From assembly GCA_015491245.1 (NCBI GenBank), contig WFWH01000047.1, positions 1-36,149 of the forward strand: a stretch of 36,149 nt of DNA, read 5' to 3'. The position numbers and the translations under genes are program-made. This document shows, in pieces, positions 21,909-29,050 of this stretch (positions are counted from its first letter, which is position 1; each line of letters begins with the position of its first letter). The stretch is from Patescibacteria group bacterium (lineage in GTDB: Bacteria > Patescibacteriota > Minisyncoccia > Phycocordibacterales > UBA12088). Under the pieces are notes generated by a model. The model did no database searches, was not told the origin of the DNA, and saw only the letters and a list, made by a program, of their open reading frames with translations.

Positions 21909-23312
21909 CTACCCGGATGTAGTGGCGTCAAAGCCGCCCTCGCGCATGCACAGCTGCGTGGGCTTGCCGCGCAGGCGCGTTTCCAAATAGACGTCCTGTC
22001 CCCAGAGCGCGCGCAGGTAGCCCAGGGTCTTCTCGGCGTGGGTCATTTCCAGATCACGCCCGTCGTGCTCGTGGCGCAGGTAGAGGGCGCGCCGTCCCTG
22101 ATGATCGGCATCGAGGATGCGGATCACCGGAAGGGTTCCGGTACCCACCTGGCGCAGCAGCTGCGCTTTCACCTCCCTCCAGTTTTCCTCGTCGGACACC
22201 TGGGTGACGACGCAATACTCGCCGCGCGGCTTCCATGCAAAGAGGTCCAGCTCCCCCATAAGTTCCTTGGTGAGGAACCGGCGCAGGAAGGCAACGTCGC
22301 GGTCGCTCTCGCGCACCGAAAAGAGCTTCTCGCGCGCTTCGGCGCTACCCTCGCCGCCGAAGCGCCGCTCAATGTCCCGCCAGACTAGGAAGCCGATGTG
22401 GTAGGGATTGAGGCCTCCGGGCTGCGGGCAGATCACCTGGTTGTGGCGCACCAGGAACTCGAGATGGAGGGCCTCGGGGAGCTCGAGGGCGTGCATGATG
22501 CGATGGTGCCAGAAACTGGCCCAACCCTCGTTCATGATCTTGGTTTCCATCTGCGGGATGAAGTAGCGCGCCTCCTCGTCAACAATGGTCAGGAGGTCGC
22601 GCTGCCACTCCGCGAGATGGCGGTTGTGGTCGCGGATGAAGAGCAGGATGTCCTCCTCGGGCTCGAGGGGAACGCGCCGCAGCTCCGGCTCCGCCACCTC
22701 CTGCGGCGGGTGCAGATGGGCGAAGGGGTCGGGCCGCGGCGTCGCCCGCTCAAGGGCCGCCGCCCGCTGCTCCTCCTCCGAGGGCTTGCGGATGGCGATG
22801 TTGCGGCGCCGGTTGAACGAGAGCGCATGGGCGGCATCCAGGAATTGCTCCACCGCCTCGGCGCCGATCGAGGGATCCTCGAGGTAGCGCCGCACCCGGT
22901 CGGCGCGGGCCTTGAACGCCGCGAGGGTCTCCTTCGCGTTCGTCGCGCTCGTGAAGGTGAAATTGTTCTTGAAGAAGTCATTGTGCCCGTAGACGTGGGC
23001 GATGGTCAGCACCTGGAGGCAGAGGCTGTTGTCCCGCATGAGGTAGGCGAGACAGGGGTCCGAGTTGATCACCATCTCGTAGGGCAGGCCCTGGACCCCG
23101 TAATCGTACATGGTCTTGATCTGCTCGAACGCCTTGCCAAAGCTCCAGTGGGGATAGTGCGAGGGCATGCCGTGGTAGGCCATGTAGCCGAGCATTGCCT
23201 CCTGGTCGCAGATCTCGAACTCCTGTTCGTAGCAGTCGAGGCCGAACTCTGCAACCTTCTCGCGGATGCGCGCGTCCCAGTACTCGAGCTCGCGCATGCT
23301 CCAGCTGCTCAT
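21909..23312 (-). CDS. SpoVR family protein
   Basis: DPCLAYLMRDNSLCLQVLTIAHVYGHNDFFKNN and NEGWASFWHHRIM motifs; SD AGGAGGAG. Confidence 0.92.
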   Translation of the reverse strand: MSSWSMRELEYWDARIREKVAEFGLDCYEQEFEICDQEAMLGYMAYHGMPSHYPHWSFGKAFEQIKTMYDYGVQGLPYEMVINSDPCLAYLMRDNSLCLQVLTIAHVYGHNDFFKNNFTFTSATNAKETLAAFKARADRVRRYLEDPSIGAEAVEQFLDAAHALSFNRRRNIAIRKPSEEEQRAAALERATPRPDPFAHLHPPQEVAEPELRRVPLEPEEDILLFIRDHNRHLAEWQRDLLTIVDEEARYFIPQMETKIMNEGWASFWHHRIMHALELPEALHLEFLVRHNQVICPQPGGLNPYHIGFLVWRDIERRFGGEGSAEAREKLFSVRESDRDVAFLRRFLTKELMGELDLFAWKPRGEYCVVTQVSDEENWREVKAQLLRQVGTGTLPVIRILDADHQGRRALYLRHEHDGRDLEMTHAEKTLGYLRALWGQDVYLETRLRGKPTQLCMREGGFDATTSG

Positions 23313-23368
23313 GATCTCCTCCTTTTTTGTGTCCACCCCCCAACGTACTCTTTTTTTGCAAAGGTGCA

Positions 23369-23395
23369 AGAAAATACCGGCGCACCGCGCCGGTA
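23369..23395 (-). terminator. Terminator-like hairpin between yeaH-like and spoVR
   Basis: Minus strand TACCGGCGC-GGT-GCGCCGGTA followed by TTTTCTT. Confidence 0.6.
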
Positions 23396-23421
23396 ATATG
23401 TTCAAAGTGAGATGGGTGCCC

Positions 23422-24624
23422 TTATCCGGCCACCGCCTGCTCTCCGGCCCGATCTTTTGCCATGAAGGCGCGGAAGGCGGGCCAAACATCTTCGCGCCCC
23501 CTAATCTGCACCGCATGGAAATGCTCGGCCTCCAACTGCTGGCTGAACATTTCCAAGAGGGACCCCTCAAAGAAGGGGGATCCCTCTGGCTTGATTTCGC
23601 CATAGCCGAAGAGGTTGCACACTTCGCACAGCTCCGCCGCGGCACGCAGCGCCTCGGCGTTGTCGGACTGGAAGTTATCGCCGTCCGAGCAGTGGAAGGC
23701 GTAGATGTTCCAGAGCTCGGGGTGATAGCGGCCGTGAATGATCTCAAGCGCCTTCTTGTAGCCCGAGGAGATGAGCGTGCCGCCGGATTCGCCCTTGTGG
23801 AAGAACTCTTCCTCGGTGACCTCCTTCGCCTGGGTGTGGTGGGCGATGAACACCACCTGCACGTGGTCGTAGCGCACGCGCACGAACTGATAGAGGAGGA
23901 AGAAGAAGCTCCGCGCGAGGTACTTCTTCATCTGGTCCATGGAGCCCGAGGTGTCCATGATGCAGATGACGACCGCATTGCTCTCCTCGCGCAGATCTGG
24001 TTTGAGGCGGCGGTAGACGAGATCGCGTTTGTGGAAGGGGAAACGCTCCTCGCCCTCGGCTGGCGACGATGCATCTTCACCGGCGGCACCGACCGCAACC
24101 TTGCGGCGCATGCGTGCGCGCACCGTGCGCCTGCGGTCGAGATGCACGCGCACGCCCTGCCGGCGGTAGCCCTTGCGCTTGGCGATCCGCTCGCTCGGCA
24201 CCTCGCGCAGGAACTTGCGCTCCATGTCGGGCAGTGCGAGATCCTCAAACATGATGTCCACGAGCTCGTCGAGGGAGATCTCGGTCTCGTAGTAGTCCTC
24301 CCCCGGCGCGTTGCCCGCCTTGCCCGGCCCCGCCTGCCCGCGGCGCCCGCGTCGGCCGACGACCTGGCCCGGCTTGGTGTCACCCTTGCCGGTCCCCACG
24401 CCGCCCGCGCCTTTGCCGTAGACGAAGCGGTATTCCCGCACGCCGCGGATCGGCACCTTGATGATGCGGTCCCGGGCGCGGCCGATGATGCTCTCCTCGG
24501 CGATGATGTCGGCGATGTTCTCGCGCAGTGCGCGGCGCAGCTTCTCGCGATGCCGCGTGCGGTCGCCAGCGCTCCGGTCGGAGCGCAGGGCGTCGCTCTC
24601 GGAATAGGGACGGAACACCGTCAT
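23422..24624 (-). CDS. YeaH/DUF444 family protein (VWA-like)
   Basis: CIMDTSGSMDQMKKYLARSFFFLLYQF, EEFFHKGESGGTLISSGYKKALEII; SD AAAGGAGG. Confidence 0.92.
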   Translation of the reverse strand: MTVFRPYSESDALRSDRSAGDRTRHREKLRRALRENIADIIAEESIIGRARDRIIKVPIRGVREYRFVYGKGAGGVGTGKGDTKPGQVVGRRGRRGQAGPGKAGNAPGEDYYETEISLDELVDIMFEDLALPDMERKFLREVPSERIAKRKGYRRQGVRVHLDRRRTVRARMRRKVAVGAAGEDASSPAEGEERFPFHKRDLVYRRLKPDLREESNAVVICIMDTSGSMDQMKKYLARSFFFLLYQFVRVRYDHVQVVFIAHHTQAKEVTEEEFFHKGESGGTLISSGYKKALEIIHGRYHPELWNIYAFHCSDGDNFQSDNAEALRAAAELCEVCNLFGYGEIKPEGSPFFEGSLLEMFSQQLEAEHFHAVQIRGREDVWPAFRAFMAKDRAGEQAVAG

Positions 24625-24711
24625 TTCCCACCTCCTTTCTTTCGCGTGCTACATTGCTTCCCTGCGCCAACGTAGCGGATTTTTACGGAAATGTAAACGC
24701 CGCCGCGCGCC

Positions 24712-24740
24712 AAAGAAAAAGCCCGAACGCGTGTTCGGGC
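24712..24740 (-). terminator. Terminator downstream of prkA
   Basis: Minus strand GCCCGAACACGCGTTCGGGC followed by TTTTTCTTT. Confidence 0.8.
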
Positions 24741-24759
24741 AAATTTGCGTTCGCGCCCC

Positions 24760-24867
24760 CTACTTCTTCCGCGGAATCTTTTTCTGCGGCGGAGAGTGGC
24801 GCGAAGAGGAAGTGCGCTGCAGAAGGCGCAATGTGTACGCCTTCGCAACCCTTGACGCCACCATCAT
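24760..24867 (-). CDS. Candidate 35-aa basic small ORF overlapping the prkA stop
   Basis: TGATG stop/start overlap; MMVASRVAKAYTLRLLQRTSSSRHSPPQKKIPRKK; ends just before the terminator. Confidence 0.35.
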   Translation of the reverse strand: MMVASRVAKAYTLRLLQRTSSSRHSPPQKKIPRKK

Positions 24868-26786
24868 CAATCCCTCCACAGGTGGTTGGCGGCGTACTTG
24901 AGGATCGTGTCGATGCTCTCCTCGCTGTAGCCCTGCGCTAGCAGGTTCTCCACCATGGCATCGTACTTCTGGCGCTGCTCGGCGTCGCGGGTGCGTGCCT
25001 TGGTGATGATGCGGCTGATGTCCCGCACTGAATGCATGAGCTTCTTCTCGATCGCCTCCTTGAGCGGCTCGTAGGATTCGTAGGAGATCTTCTCACCGCG
25101 CCGGCTGGCCGACCAGAGATAGGCGATCACCTCCTGGCGGAAGCCCTCGGCGGCGGGGCCGATGACGGCGATCTGCTCCTCAATGGATTTGAGAAAGCTC
25201 TCATCCGGCTGCATCTCGTCGCCGGTCATCTGATCCTTGACCTTGCCGCGGGTGACGAAGGCCTCGGCGTGGTCGAGATAGTTGTGGAACAGGGTCTCCG
25301 CCTGGTCCTTGAAGGAGTAGACGAAGGCCTTGGTGATGTCCCGCTCCAGCATCTCGAGATAGGCCTTGTGCAGGGTATCGCGCAGGAATTCGAGGTACTG
25401 CTTCTTCACGTCATCGGCGAGGTCGGCCTCCTTCACCATCTGAATGAGGGCCTCGCGCACGTTGATAGGGTGGATCACGCCGCCGTGCTGGGTGAGCGCG
25501 GTGTCCAGCGCCTTCATGATGAAGCGGGTGGAGATGCCGAACATGCCCTCGCGCTTGGCGTCCTCCCAGAGCTCGTGGGCGGTGAGCTTCTTGGGCCGTC
25601 CCTTCTCCAGCACCTCCTCGCCGTTGTAGATCCGGAGCTTGGTCATCGGATCGCACTTCGGGGTCGGCTCCAGCCGCGACAGGATCGCGAACATGGAGGC
25701 GATCTCCAGAGTATGCGGCGCGATCTTGGCACCAAAGCGCGACCGCGCGAGGAACTTCCGGTAGATCTTCACCTCCTCGGAGAGGCGCAGGTTGTAGGGC
25801 ACCTTGACCACCACGATGCGGTCGAGGATGGCCTCGTTGGTGTGGTCGGCCTTGAATTTCTGCCACTCGGCCTCGTTGCTGTGGGCGATGATGCAGCAGT
25901 CGACATAGATGGTGCCGTGGCGGCCCGGCGCTGGCACGAACTTCTCCTGCGTCGCGGTGATCATGGTGTGCAAATACTCGGTCTCGTTCTTGAACACCTC
26001 GATGAACTCGACGAGACCGCGATTGCCGGCGTTGAAAGCGCCGTTGAGCTCCAAGACCCGCGGATCGCTTTCCGAGTAGCGGTCGAGCTTGGAGATGTCC
26101 TCGGAGCCGATCAGCACCGAGGTGTCCTGGTTGTTGGGATCGACCGGCGGCACCACGCCGATGCCGCGCCGGGCCCGGCTGCTGAAGGTCACCGTGTGCA
26201 CCGGGACCGCTTCGTACTTGCCCCCGTACTCCTGCGCAAGCCGCCAGCGGCACACCGGGCAGAGATCGCCCTCAATACGCACCCCCAGCATGTCCTCGAA
26301 GGCCGGGCGCAGATGGCGGGGGATGAGATGGAGCGGCTGCTCGCGCATCGGGCAGCCCTCGATGGCGTAGATCGGATCGAGCTCCTCGAGGCCGCGCTTG
26401 AGCCGCTCGGCGAGCGAGCTCTTGCCGGAGCCCACGGGCCCCATGAGATAGAGCACCTGCCGGCTCTCCTCGCCGCCCATGGCGGCCGAATGGAAGTAGC
26501 GGACGATCTTCTCAAGCGTGCGCTCCATGCCGAAGAACTCGTCCTTGAAGAAGCCGTAAGCCTTGACCGGACGGTCGCCGAACAGGCGCTGGGCGCGGGG
26601 ATCGGCATCCTTGTCGAGCTCGCCGACGCCCTTGGCGGCAATCATCTCGTAGACCCGCTTGTGGGCGAGGTCGGCGAGCCCGGGATCGGCTTTAACGAGC
26701 TCCAGGTACTCCAGAAACGTGCCGCGCCACTCTTTGCGCTGGCGCTCGCTGCGGTCCTGGGCGATCAGGGTCGCGAAGTCGTTCAT
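24867..26786 (-). CDS. prkA: PrkA family serine protein kinase
   Basis: 639 aa with GPVGSGKSSLAERLKRGLEE, DCCIIAHSNEAEWQKFK, and conserved PrkA C-terminal region; SD GAGGAGAAGG. Confidence 0.93.
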   Translation of the reverse strand: MNDFATLIAQDRSERQRKEWRGTFLEYLELVKADPGLADLAHKRVYEMIAAKGVGELDKDADPRAQRLFGDRPVKAYGFFKDEFFGMERTLEKIVRYFHSAAMGGEESRQVLYLMGPVGSGKSSLAERLKRGLEELDPIYAIEGCPMREQPLHLIPRHLRPAFEDMLGVRIEGDLCPVCRWRLAQEYGGKYEAVPVHTVTFSSRARRGIGVVPPVDPNNQDTSVLIGSEDISKLDRYSESDPRVLELNGAFNAGNRGLVEFIEVFKNETEYLHTMITATQEKFVPAPGRHGTIYVDCCIIAHSNEAEWQKFKADHTNEAILDRIVVVKVPYNLRLSEEVKIYRKFLARSRFGAKIAPHTLEIASMFAILSRLEPTPKCDPMTKLRIYNGEEVLEKGRPKKLTAHELWEDAKREGMFGISTRFIMKALDTALTQHGGVIHPINVREALIQMVKEADLADDVKKQYLEFLRDTLHKAYLEMLERDITKAFVYSFKDQAETLFHNYLDHAEAFVTRGKVKDQMTGDEMQPDESFLKSIEEQIAVIGPAAEGFRQEVIAYLWSASRRGEKISYESYEPLKEAIEKKLMHSVRDISRIITKARTRDAEQRQKYDAMVENLLAQGYSEESIDTILKYAANHLWRD

Positions 26787-26998
26787 ATCCTTCTCCTCTA
26801 AAGAACAAATGGACACCTCACCATGAGGCGCCCTTCCTGTGTCAGAAAGGTACGAAATTTCCCCGCGCCGTCAATCTTGTTTTTGCCGAGAAACCGTAAA
26901 TTCCCGCGTGTCAAGCGCACGCCCACCCATAGGAGTTCGGCGCGCGGAGAAAGTGGCGAACACGCCCACAGCCATTAGGCACCGCGCCGGCGGCGAAT

Positions 26999-27155
26999 GG
27001 CGCGCTGAGAACGTCGGGTGCAGCTCGCCGACAAGCACTCACTTCGCTCGTCTTGTATACCGGCTCCGCCGTTCAAGTCCTCTCCTGGGACATACACAAT
27101 AGTCGGCACACACGGTGTGTGTGCCTCCTTTGTGTTTTGTGTCCAGGAGAGGACT
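26999..27155. repeat. tRNA-Leu-derived long-hairpin repeat, unit A
   Basis: 157 bp, ~92-95% identical by eye to unit B; AAGTCCTCTCCTGG(G)ACA ... TGTCCAGGAGAGGACT arms around GGCACACAC-GGT-GTGTGTGCC. Confidence 0.85.
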
Positions 27156-27180
27156 GTCCCGCTTTTTCTAAGCGCGCCGC

Positions 27181-27337
27181 GGCGCGCTAAGAACGCTGGA
27201 CGCGGCTCGCCGACAAGCACTCGCTTCGCTCGTCTTGTATACCGGCTCCGCCGTTCAAGTCCTCTCCTGGGACGTACACAATAGTCAGCACACACGGTGT
27301 GTGTGCCTCCTTTGTGTTTTGTGTCCAGGAGAGGACT
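27181..27337. repeat. tRNA-Leu-derived long-hairpin repeat, unit B (right arm is the 3' end of tRNA-Leu)
   Basis: Tandem copy 182 bp from unit A; right arm overlaps tRNA-Leu. Confidence 0.85.
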
Positions 27338-27405
27338 TGAACCTCCACGGGGTTGCCCCCACTACCCCCTCAAGGTAGCGCGTCTACCAGTTCCGCCACC
27401 TGGAC
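27322..27405 (-). tRNA. tRNA-Leu(GAG)
   Basis: GTCCAGG/CCTGGAC acceptor stem, loop TTGAGGG, long variable arm, GGTTCAAGTCC T-arm. Confidence 0.92.
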
Positions 27406-27447
27406 AACTGCTTTCAGTATGCCCGAGAACGCCGTAAGTGACAAGAT

Positions 27448-27472
27448 CACACGCGCCCCACAGGCGCGTGTG
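27448..27472. terminator. Hairpin between rplS and tRNA-Leu, possible terminator
   Basis: CACACGCGCC-CCACA-GGCGCGTGTG; weak T-tract. Confidence 0.4.
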
Positions 27473-27507
27473 CTGAGAGAAATTACACTTTATTTATAAT
27501 GTAAAAG

Positions 27508-28095
27508 TTATGCCGCTTTCTCTTCCTGCTTTTCTTGTGGCTCTGCGTCGGCAGCGCGCGCACTTTCCTTTTGCGGCTCTGGATCGCTTTGCGGCTCCGC
27601 AGTGTTTTTCTCCTCTTCCTTGCCTTGCGGTGCGGGTGCATCCTCTGCGGCAGGAGAGGTAGAGGATTCTTCCGCTGCAGGCACCGCTTCATCACCCGCT
27701 TCTGTTTCCTTCTCGGGTGCAACGAGATCGTCGGTAGACGTTCCCATCACGCGCGCGCCGCGCAGGGTGCGGCGAATCTCGCGTGCCACCTTTTCGCGAA
27801 TGTAGTAGAGCTTGGCGCGCCGCACTTTCGCGCGCTTTACAATCTCTATCTTTTCAATCATCGGGGAGTAGAGGGGGAAGGTCTTTTCTACCCCCACACC
27901 GCTTGCCGTGCGGCGCACGGTAAACGTGCCACCCGCCTCATTGCCGTGTTTGCGGTAGAGTACCATGCCCTCAAAGACCTGCAGGCGCGTTTTCCCCTTT
28001 TCCTGGATTTTCTGGTGCACGCGCACAATGTCACCCGCTTTAATGCCGAGATTTTTGCGTGCCGCCGTATCCACCGGCGAAATGACCGTTTCCAT
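27508..28095 (-). CDS. rplS: 50S ribosomal protein L19 with acidic C-terminal extension
   Basis: [45 protein letters not shown]...[11 protein letters not shown]; ~70-aa E/P/A-rich tail. Confidence 0.92.
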
Positions 28096-28276
28096 AGCGC
28101 GAGTACTGTAACACGAGTTTTTCACGCGCACAACCCTTCCTATCGCTCCACATCCCACATACGGGACACAGCTTTTGTCCCTCATCAAAGGTTGCCCTTT
28201 ATGAATGCACCAAGTACACGCAATACATTCCCACAAAGCGACCTTCGAGATTGCACCTGCCACAAGCTCGGTCTTT

Positions 28277-29050
28277 CTATTTAAATTCCGCTTCCGCCCT
28301 TTGCGCCGCTTCCACCGCCCGCACCGCGCGCGCCATGTCCTCGGGAAGGGGCGCCGCCACTTCTCTCTCTTCCCCCTTGCGCGTGCGGAACACCACGCGC
28401 GCGGCGTGGAGCGCCACGCGCGAGAGGCCGAGCGCCAAAGGGTGTTTGGGCGCATAGAGTGCGTCCCCCACAATGGGATGATGGAGCGCCTGCAAATGCA
28501 CGCGCAGTTGGTGCGTTCTCCCTGTTTCGGGTTCCAGCGCAACCACACTAAACCCCCCGCCGCGCGCGCACACGCGGTATCGCGTGCGCGCATCCCGCAC
28601 CTTCCCCTTCACCTTAGAAAATGCGCTCCAGCGCGGCGGCCCCTTGGAAGAGGCGCTGCGCCCTATGGGGCGCGCGATCACTCCCTCCTCTTCGTTCCAT
28701 TCCCCCCACACGACGGCGAGGTACTCTTTCTTCACCTGCCGCGCTTGGAATTGCGTTTTGAGATGTGCGTGCGCTTCGGCCGTTTTCGCAAGCAGCAACA
28801 CGCCGCTCGTATCCCTATCCAAACGGTGCACCACACCGGGGCGCGCAATCGGCGTGCCATCGTGCAAGAGGTGCGGCTCCCCCACCCGGGCCGCCTCAGG
28901 ATACCGCGCCACAAACCAATCGGATACGGTGTACGCCACACGCTTGCCGTCGGGGTGCACCAGCATGCCTGCGGGCTTGTCTACGGCGAGCACGTCTTCG
29001 TCCTCATACAGGACGGCAATATCGGCTCCGGATGATGCCGCAGTTTCCAT
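28277..29050 (-). CDS. RluA/RluD-family pseudouridine synthase
   Basis: [32 protein letters not shown]. Confidence 0.92.

Follow-up and report, generated by a model that had tools for sequence, protein, structure and literature searches.

The described systems that come closest to the repeats analysed here are tRNA-targeted integrative elements, integron cassettes with their attC sites, MITEs and REP-type elements, and the group I introns of tRNA genes. Like the first of these, the units described below insert into a tRNA loop, restore the tRNA and have, on either side, a direct repeat that begins in the loop and ends with the tRNA; unlike them, they are gene-free, measure roughly 130-220 nt, combine an antisense T-arm copy with a folded conserved core, carry copies matching any isotype, and no dedicated integrase was found for them. 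They share with integron cassettes and attC the position of the newest unit beside a fixed anchor, imperfect strand-specific hairpins conserved more in structure than in sequence, and occasionally bracketed cargo; they differ in that a tRNA gene is the anchor, the tRNA's own T-arm provides the arms, the core ends in GACC or GGAC instead of the attC GTTRRRY box, and the single PF00589 proteins of these genomes, assigned at family level, are presumably Xer. Short, non-coding, hairpin-forming, present in many copies and presumably mobilised in trans, the units also resemble MITEs and REP-type elements, from which a fixed spacing of 57-62 nt to tRNA genes and target-specific arms set them apart. 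As with group I introns of tRNA genes, a structured RNA with guide-like pairing to a tRNA exon is present in the tRNA gene; in contrast, the units have no Rfam group I match, neither a P3-P9 core nor removal from an interrupted gene was found, most are far smaller, and the tRNA is almost always complete upstream of the unit, so that no splicing is needed. Such units are absent from Rfam and from the open-access literature searched, in which the only related remark found concerns group I introns in CPR tRNAs (PMC8172020). The novelty of the class is judged against Rfam, the libraries used and open-access papers only, and a preprint or subscription paper could describe it.

The window (the whole 36,149-nt stretch of DNA analysed) contains two tandem copies of a real, unclassified class of units that fold strand-specifically and track tRNA genes. 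The host gene, tRNA-Leu(GAG), lies on the minus strand, from 27405 down to 27322 (ARAGORN; Rfam RF00005). It sits between the gene of a long ribosomal protein L19 (361 aa) and prkA, with spoVR beyond (window 21909-28593). The two 157-nt copies with period 182 that the sequence-only reading had reported (26999-27155 and 27181-27337) were recovered, at 94% identity; the 6% of positions that differ indicate that this is not a simple assembly duplication. The complementarity that it had proposed to the true tRNA-Leu(GAG) 3′ end is exact over 18 nt (GTTCAAGTCCTCTCCTGG / CCAGGAGAGGACTTGAAC). It had rightly placed the repeats beside tRNA-Leu, with the correction that the tRNA is on the minus strand and both units are downstream of it.

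Read on the tRNA strand (all features below are on the minus strand), the order is: tRNA; hairpin A; B, antisense to the T-arm; folded core C; and D2, a copy of the tRNA from the T-loop to the 3′ end. After the first D2 the window repeats A, B and a truncated C, the conserved core (27156-27252; 27022-27070 plus a remnant) lying between one hairpin and the next tRNA copy. The duplicated stretch within the tRNA itself, D1, covers tRNA positions 57-73, T-loop to discriminator (27322-27338). Part A of unit 1 (27274-27321; repeat comparison and folding) is a hairpin with the apex GGCACACAC/GTGTGTGC, followed by B (27253-27273; inverted repeat I2), an antisense copy of the tRNA T-arm and acceptor. 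Its core consists of helices P1-P3 (GGCGGAGCCGGTATACAAGA...TGCTTGTCGGCGAGCC; 27204-27252), supported by covariation and by an 86.6-bit match (27187-27261) to the covariance model R1 described below, and helix P4 (GTCC..TTCTTAG..CTTAGAA..GGAC; 27156-27203), supported by folding and by covarying closing pairs; the second copy of the tRNA 3′ end, D2 (AGTCCTCTCCTGGACAC), occupies 27139-27155. The distal unit opens with this 17-nt tRNA copy and continues with an A near-identical to that of unit 1 (27091-27139; whole-unit tandem duplication), B (27071-27091), helices P1-P3 (27022-27070; R1 match 27005-27079, 73.5 bits) and a P4 remnant (26999-27021), truncated at its far end and with no further tRNA copy after it. 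The nested GGCACACAC stem of the sequence-only reading is thus a real hairpin, but only the apex of part A, and its long hairpins correspond to D1-A-B, the conserved core C having been missed.

The window sequence was searched against its own genome and 60 relatives. The own genome has the same core after its tRNA-Thr(tgt) and tRNA-Asp(gtc) genes, and in the relatives it follows many isotypes, a strongly positive outcome for the suggestion that the unit would recur beside other tRNA genes. The model R1, built from 14 cores, matched 110 of 197 genomes of the order; when 380 genomes were sampled across the phylum at a strict threshold, all five matching genomes came from this same order. An exact 22-nt core pattern occurred at 52 loci in 84,980 genomes, nearly all titled Patescibacteria (Kaiser-, Campbell-, Taylor-, Nomura- and Yonathbacteria, and unnamed Parcubacteria) and a few only 'bacterium'. 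The same pattern had no exact match in the viral contigs of IMG/VR, and phage records compared with the window gave only tRNA-like matches limited to the tRNA itself. Rfam 15 at the gathering score detected only tRNAs in the window, and a permissive Rfam scan of 12 loci gave no consistent family on the core. In nearly all fetched loci, whatever the isotype, the core starts 55-65 nt past the 3′ end of the tRNA or tmRNA. Units were found behind tmRNA and nearly all tRNA isotypes, at 3 of the 33 tRNAs of the own genome and at 79% in the relative G144. The genomes compared are mostly metagenome assemblies, and units are frequently located at contig ends, as repeats would give. Three particular arrangements were observed: a tmRNA followed by three successive units, one strong and two weak matches (L109/L044, G029:C18); a normal unit behind a tRNA missed by ARAGORN that carries an apparent group I intron (L110, G149:C3); and, in one genome, another short element (ACCACAAGGGCACTTCTTG...) that is inserted in units and also located at contig ends (L147, L185 and L186; UBA3458).

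Copies B and D2 follow the sequence of the adjacent tRNA. In the complete Campbellbacteria genome G114, the 3′ tail of the gene itself is matched (at least 12 nt, within 420 nt downstream) in direct orientation at 29% of the tRNA/tmRNA genes and in inverted orientation at 31%, compared with about 1% for tails of other isotypes and 0% upstream. Among the 296 tRNA genes of the fetched loci, a set biased by having been fetched for its matches, B was present in 158 and B together with D2 in 108. The D2 acceptor was identical to that of the tRNA at 7/7 positions in 72 of these 108 units, so that both borders carry the tRNA 3′ end as a direct repeat, as known from tRNA-targeted integrative elements; D2 was intact in 79, and the acceptor part of B was complementary to the tRNA in only 37, indicating that what stays constant is the anti-T-arm together with a D2 of full length. 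The idea that B is antisense over its whole length was ruled out, regular complementarity being confined to its T-arm part. Hairpin A and the hairpin after D2 were unrelated in 72 of 79 units, and the seven similar pairs, the window's included, are whole-unit tandem duplications. A would consequently travel with the unit, and the hairpin after D2 is probably the native terminator. The same count excluded the D+A direct repeat as a fixed-length target-site duplication.

The core is maintained as a structure. Helices P1-P3 covary strongly (score 0.251, compared with 0.091 in shuffled and at most 0.038 in slid alignments), the pairs that close P4 change together (GGTC/GACC, GTCC/GGAC, GGGG/CCCC), and several core families have a common architecture. 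At the window repeats, the minus strand folds at −232 kcal/mol (z = −10; none of 100 dinucleotide shuffles as good), and B-C-D2 folding has a mean z of −4.9. The tRNA-sense strand folds better in 96% of 102 units (p about 1e-17), and downstream control DNA has no strand asymmetry. Structure prediction and covariation together show the core as folding single-stranded on the tRNA-sense strand, in a modelled three-way junction closed by B/D2 pairing; the asymmetry persists under DNA as well as RNA energy parameters, so RNA and single-stranded DNA are not separated. The T-arm of a read-through transcript pairing with the downstream antisense copy, as the sequence-only reading had imagined, is present in the predicted minimum-energy fold. 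When the units common to the congeneric genomes G144 and G184 were compared, both partners had changed, with pairing kept, in 21 of 291 core pairs; among slid partners, both sides changed in 2.8% of pairs, pairing or not. These compensatory changes indicate that the structure is maintained after insertion, by selection or by template-switch correction, and they speak against the units being dead scars.

G144 and G184 have a unit directly behind 27/34 and 23/31 of their tRNA genes, respectively. The site behind tRNA-Thr(ggt) contains one unit in G184 and none in G144: the downstream DNA is identical at 201/225 positions past the extra 175 nt, with homology upstream as well. At tRNA-Cys(gca), an extra 216-nt unit of G184 lies between the tRNA and an older unit common to both genomes; a comparable offset was found at Trp(cca), and a related offset with another element type at Ile(gat). 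As read from these orthologous sites, units are gained singly at the tRNA 3′ end, the newer adjoining the tRNA where an older one is shared. The tRNA stays complete after the gain, the stretch from about position 57 to the 3′ end flanking the unit on both sides. Besides an integration scar, the sequence-only reading had considered a MITE-like repeat or a cis regulator of tRNA maturation. Empty and occupied orthologous sites support the inserted unit implied by its integration-scar idea; the tRNA-targeting integrase element that this idea invoked finds no support in the PF00589 search described below. Many units are inherited vertically between species, with compensatory changes in their stems. 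Genome G036 has remnants stacked behind its tRNA-Phe, Gly(tcc) and Gly(ccc) genes, every remnant closing with a further tRNA copy; its orthologous tRNAs in G114 carry the same unit at Ala, and different families at Leu(tag) and Gly(gcc).

D-loop units analogous to the T-loop units are also present. In G036, a complete tRNA-Phe is followed by a second copy with a structured D-loop insert, preceded by an antisense D-arm copy (L239), and a complete tRNA-Ile(tat) by a second copy whose D-loop, anticodon loop and variable region all contain structured inserts (L232). At tRNA-Ile(gat) of the own genome (L259), a tandem 101-102-nt repeat carries a tRNA copy that begins in the anticodon arm, and resembles a counterpart of the unit at the anticodon loop.

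The units contain no genes, and in two genomes a near-identical pair of them brackets cargo. In G062 (G062:C1, L070/L112), tRNA-Ala(tgc) is split in the T-loop, in the order: tRNA 5′ part, unit core, 3.9 kb with GajA and GajB of the Gabija defence system (PADLOC E = 1.8e-153 and 3.5e-184), near-identical core, tRNA 3′ half. No intact tRNA-Ala(tgc) was found in G062 (89% complete), by a search that also missed the split gene and is therefore not exhaustive. In G066 (L100), two tRNA-Asn unit copies enclose three ORFs over about 1.4 kb, two of them transporter-like and one rhodanese-like, labelled by reading the translations. At tRNA-Trp of G149:C3 there is an 11.8-kb island (L107:356-12348) with a 567-aa large serine recombinase beside the tRNA, and also DUF4238 and zinc-ribbon proteins; its right end and those of two other islands share GTTC(T/G)AACGTCCTC, a T-arm mimic. 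The tRNA-Trp island separates the tRNA from part A, which makes it look independent of the unit.

No enzyme common to the unit-rich genomes was found among reverse transcriptases, Y1 transposases and PF00589 proteins, the families surveyed genome-wide (serine recombinases were outside the survey). The sequence-only reading had suggested a search for a tyrosine recombinase; one PF00589 protein, presumably Xer, is all that nearly every genome searched contains, on which ground a tyrosine recombinase dedicated to the units was rejected, and the complete genome G114 has none over threshold (72 kb of it masked). The PF00589 search accordingly gave no cognate integrase, in the element or elsewhere in the genome. 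Reverse transcriptase, present in 3 of 14 unit-rich genomes, does not track the units and was rejected as the mover. So was Y1 transposase, the enzyme of IS200/IS605-type MITEs and REPs, present in 10 of 14 and absent from the carrier genomes G000, G144, G047 and G151.

We consider that the window repeats are probably a tandem pair of small non-coding units whose insertion is targeted to tRNA loops. The folded single strand, as single-stranded DNA or RNA, would be the active, mobile or recognised form; B may act as a guide or recognition arm, directing insertion to the T-arm; and insertion would be carried out in trans by a host or other enzyme. The tRNA-specific B and D1 might be copies taken from the target as the unit inserts, or made afterwards by template-switch repair, and the unit could serve as an attachment site where two copies bracket cargo genes. 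Unrelated hairpins on the two sides are expected if A is brought in by the unit, the native terminator being the hairpin that comes later. Against this explanation, no enzyme shared by the unit-rich genomes was found in the families surveyed, the compensatory upkeep of inherited units would not be needed by a purely selfish insertion, and the match of B and D1 to each newly occupied tRNA is a difficulty for it. An unlikely form of mobility is a mobile RNA: the folded unit, cut or copied from read-through tRNA transcripts, would insert into T-loops (related forms into D-loops) guided by B, and be fixed in the DNA by copying off the tRNA 3′ end, rewriting B and D1. tRNA-primed reverse transcription stopping at m1A58 was ruled out, D2 usually including positions 57 and 58.

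Maintained stems would be natural for a resident regulatory RNA, in which B of a read-through transcript has two alternative partners, the T-arm (the tRNA then misfolds) and D2 (the tRNA is then freed), and core C chooses between them, thereby controlling tRNA maturation, the units being ancestral and selected and the differences between genomes being losses and gene conversion. Strand-specific folding on the tRNA-sense strand, the 21 paired double changes in 291 pairs against about 3% doubles of any kind in slid partners, the fixed spacing to the tRNA, and the existence of both alternative pairings, with the T-arm invaded in the minimum-energy fold, all agree with it. We nevertheless hold it to be rather unlikely: occupancy ranges from the 3/33 tRNAs of the own genome to the 79% of G144, orthologous tRNAs carry different core families, one clean empty site was found, the acceptor part of B is complementary to the tRNA in only 37/108 units against an intact D2 in 79/108, and part A, ahead of B, is already terminator-like. 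A further reading takes the units as attachment-site remnants of classical tRNA-targeted elements with a tyrosine or serine integrase, the 3′ end being restored by attP and the displaced end being D2. Direct repeats that begin in the T-loop (or D-loop) and end with the tRNA are the hallmark of such elements; islands targeted to tRNA genes occur at these loci, such as that at tRNA-Trp, and cargo is bracketed by units. This reading is quite unlikely, since the tRNA-Trp island looks independent of the unit, one tyrosine recombinase per genome faces tens of units, a circular attP would bring the donor tRNA 3′ end and could not match every isotype, and a covarying RNA-like core and an antisense arm B are foreign to such sites.

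Inverted copies beside hairpins are typical of template switching, and the window units are tandem duplicates; both would follow if, in place of a mobile unit, a strong terminator hairpin had provoked tandem duplication and quasi-palindrome template switching. However, a conserved core recurs across isotypes and families of the order, which slippage cannot create. The shared core refutes this as a complete explanation and leaves it very improbable, although template switching may explain how B stays complementary in the insertion units that we favour.

The units affect annotation, some of them leaving tRNA-like or split tRNA sequences and breaking assemblies. If the insertion reading is true, up to three quarters of the tRNA genes in some Patescibacteria carry a tRNA-specific structured unit, posing the question of how a non-coding unit gains sense and antisense copies of the adjacent tRNA without a dedicated recombinase. 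Were the mobile RNA true, it would be a protein-free, tRNA-tracking retroelement or intron-like parasite. Insertion units of this kind would also offer a possible route by which very small genomes acquire cargo such as defence systems.
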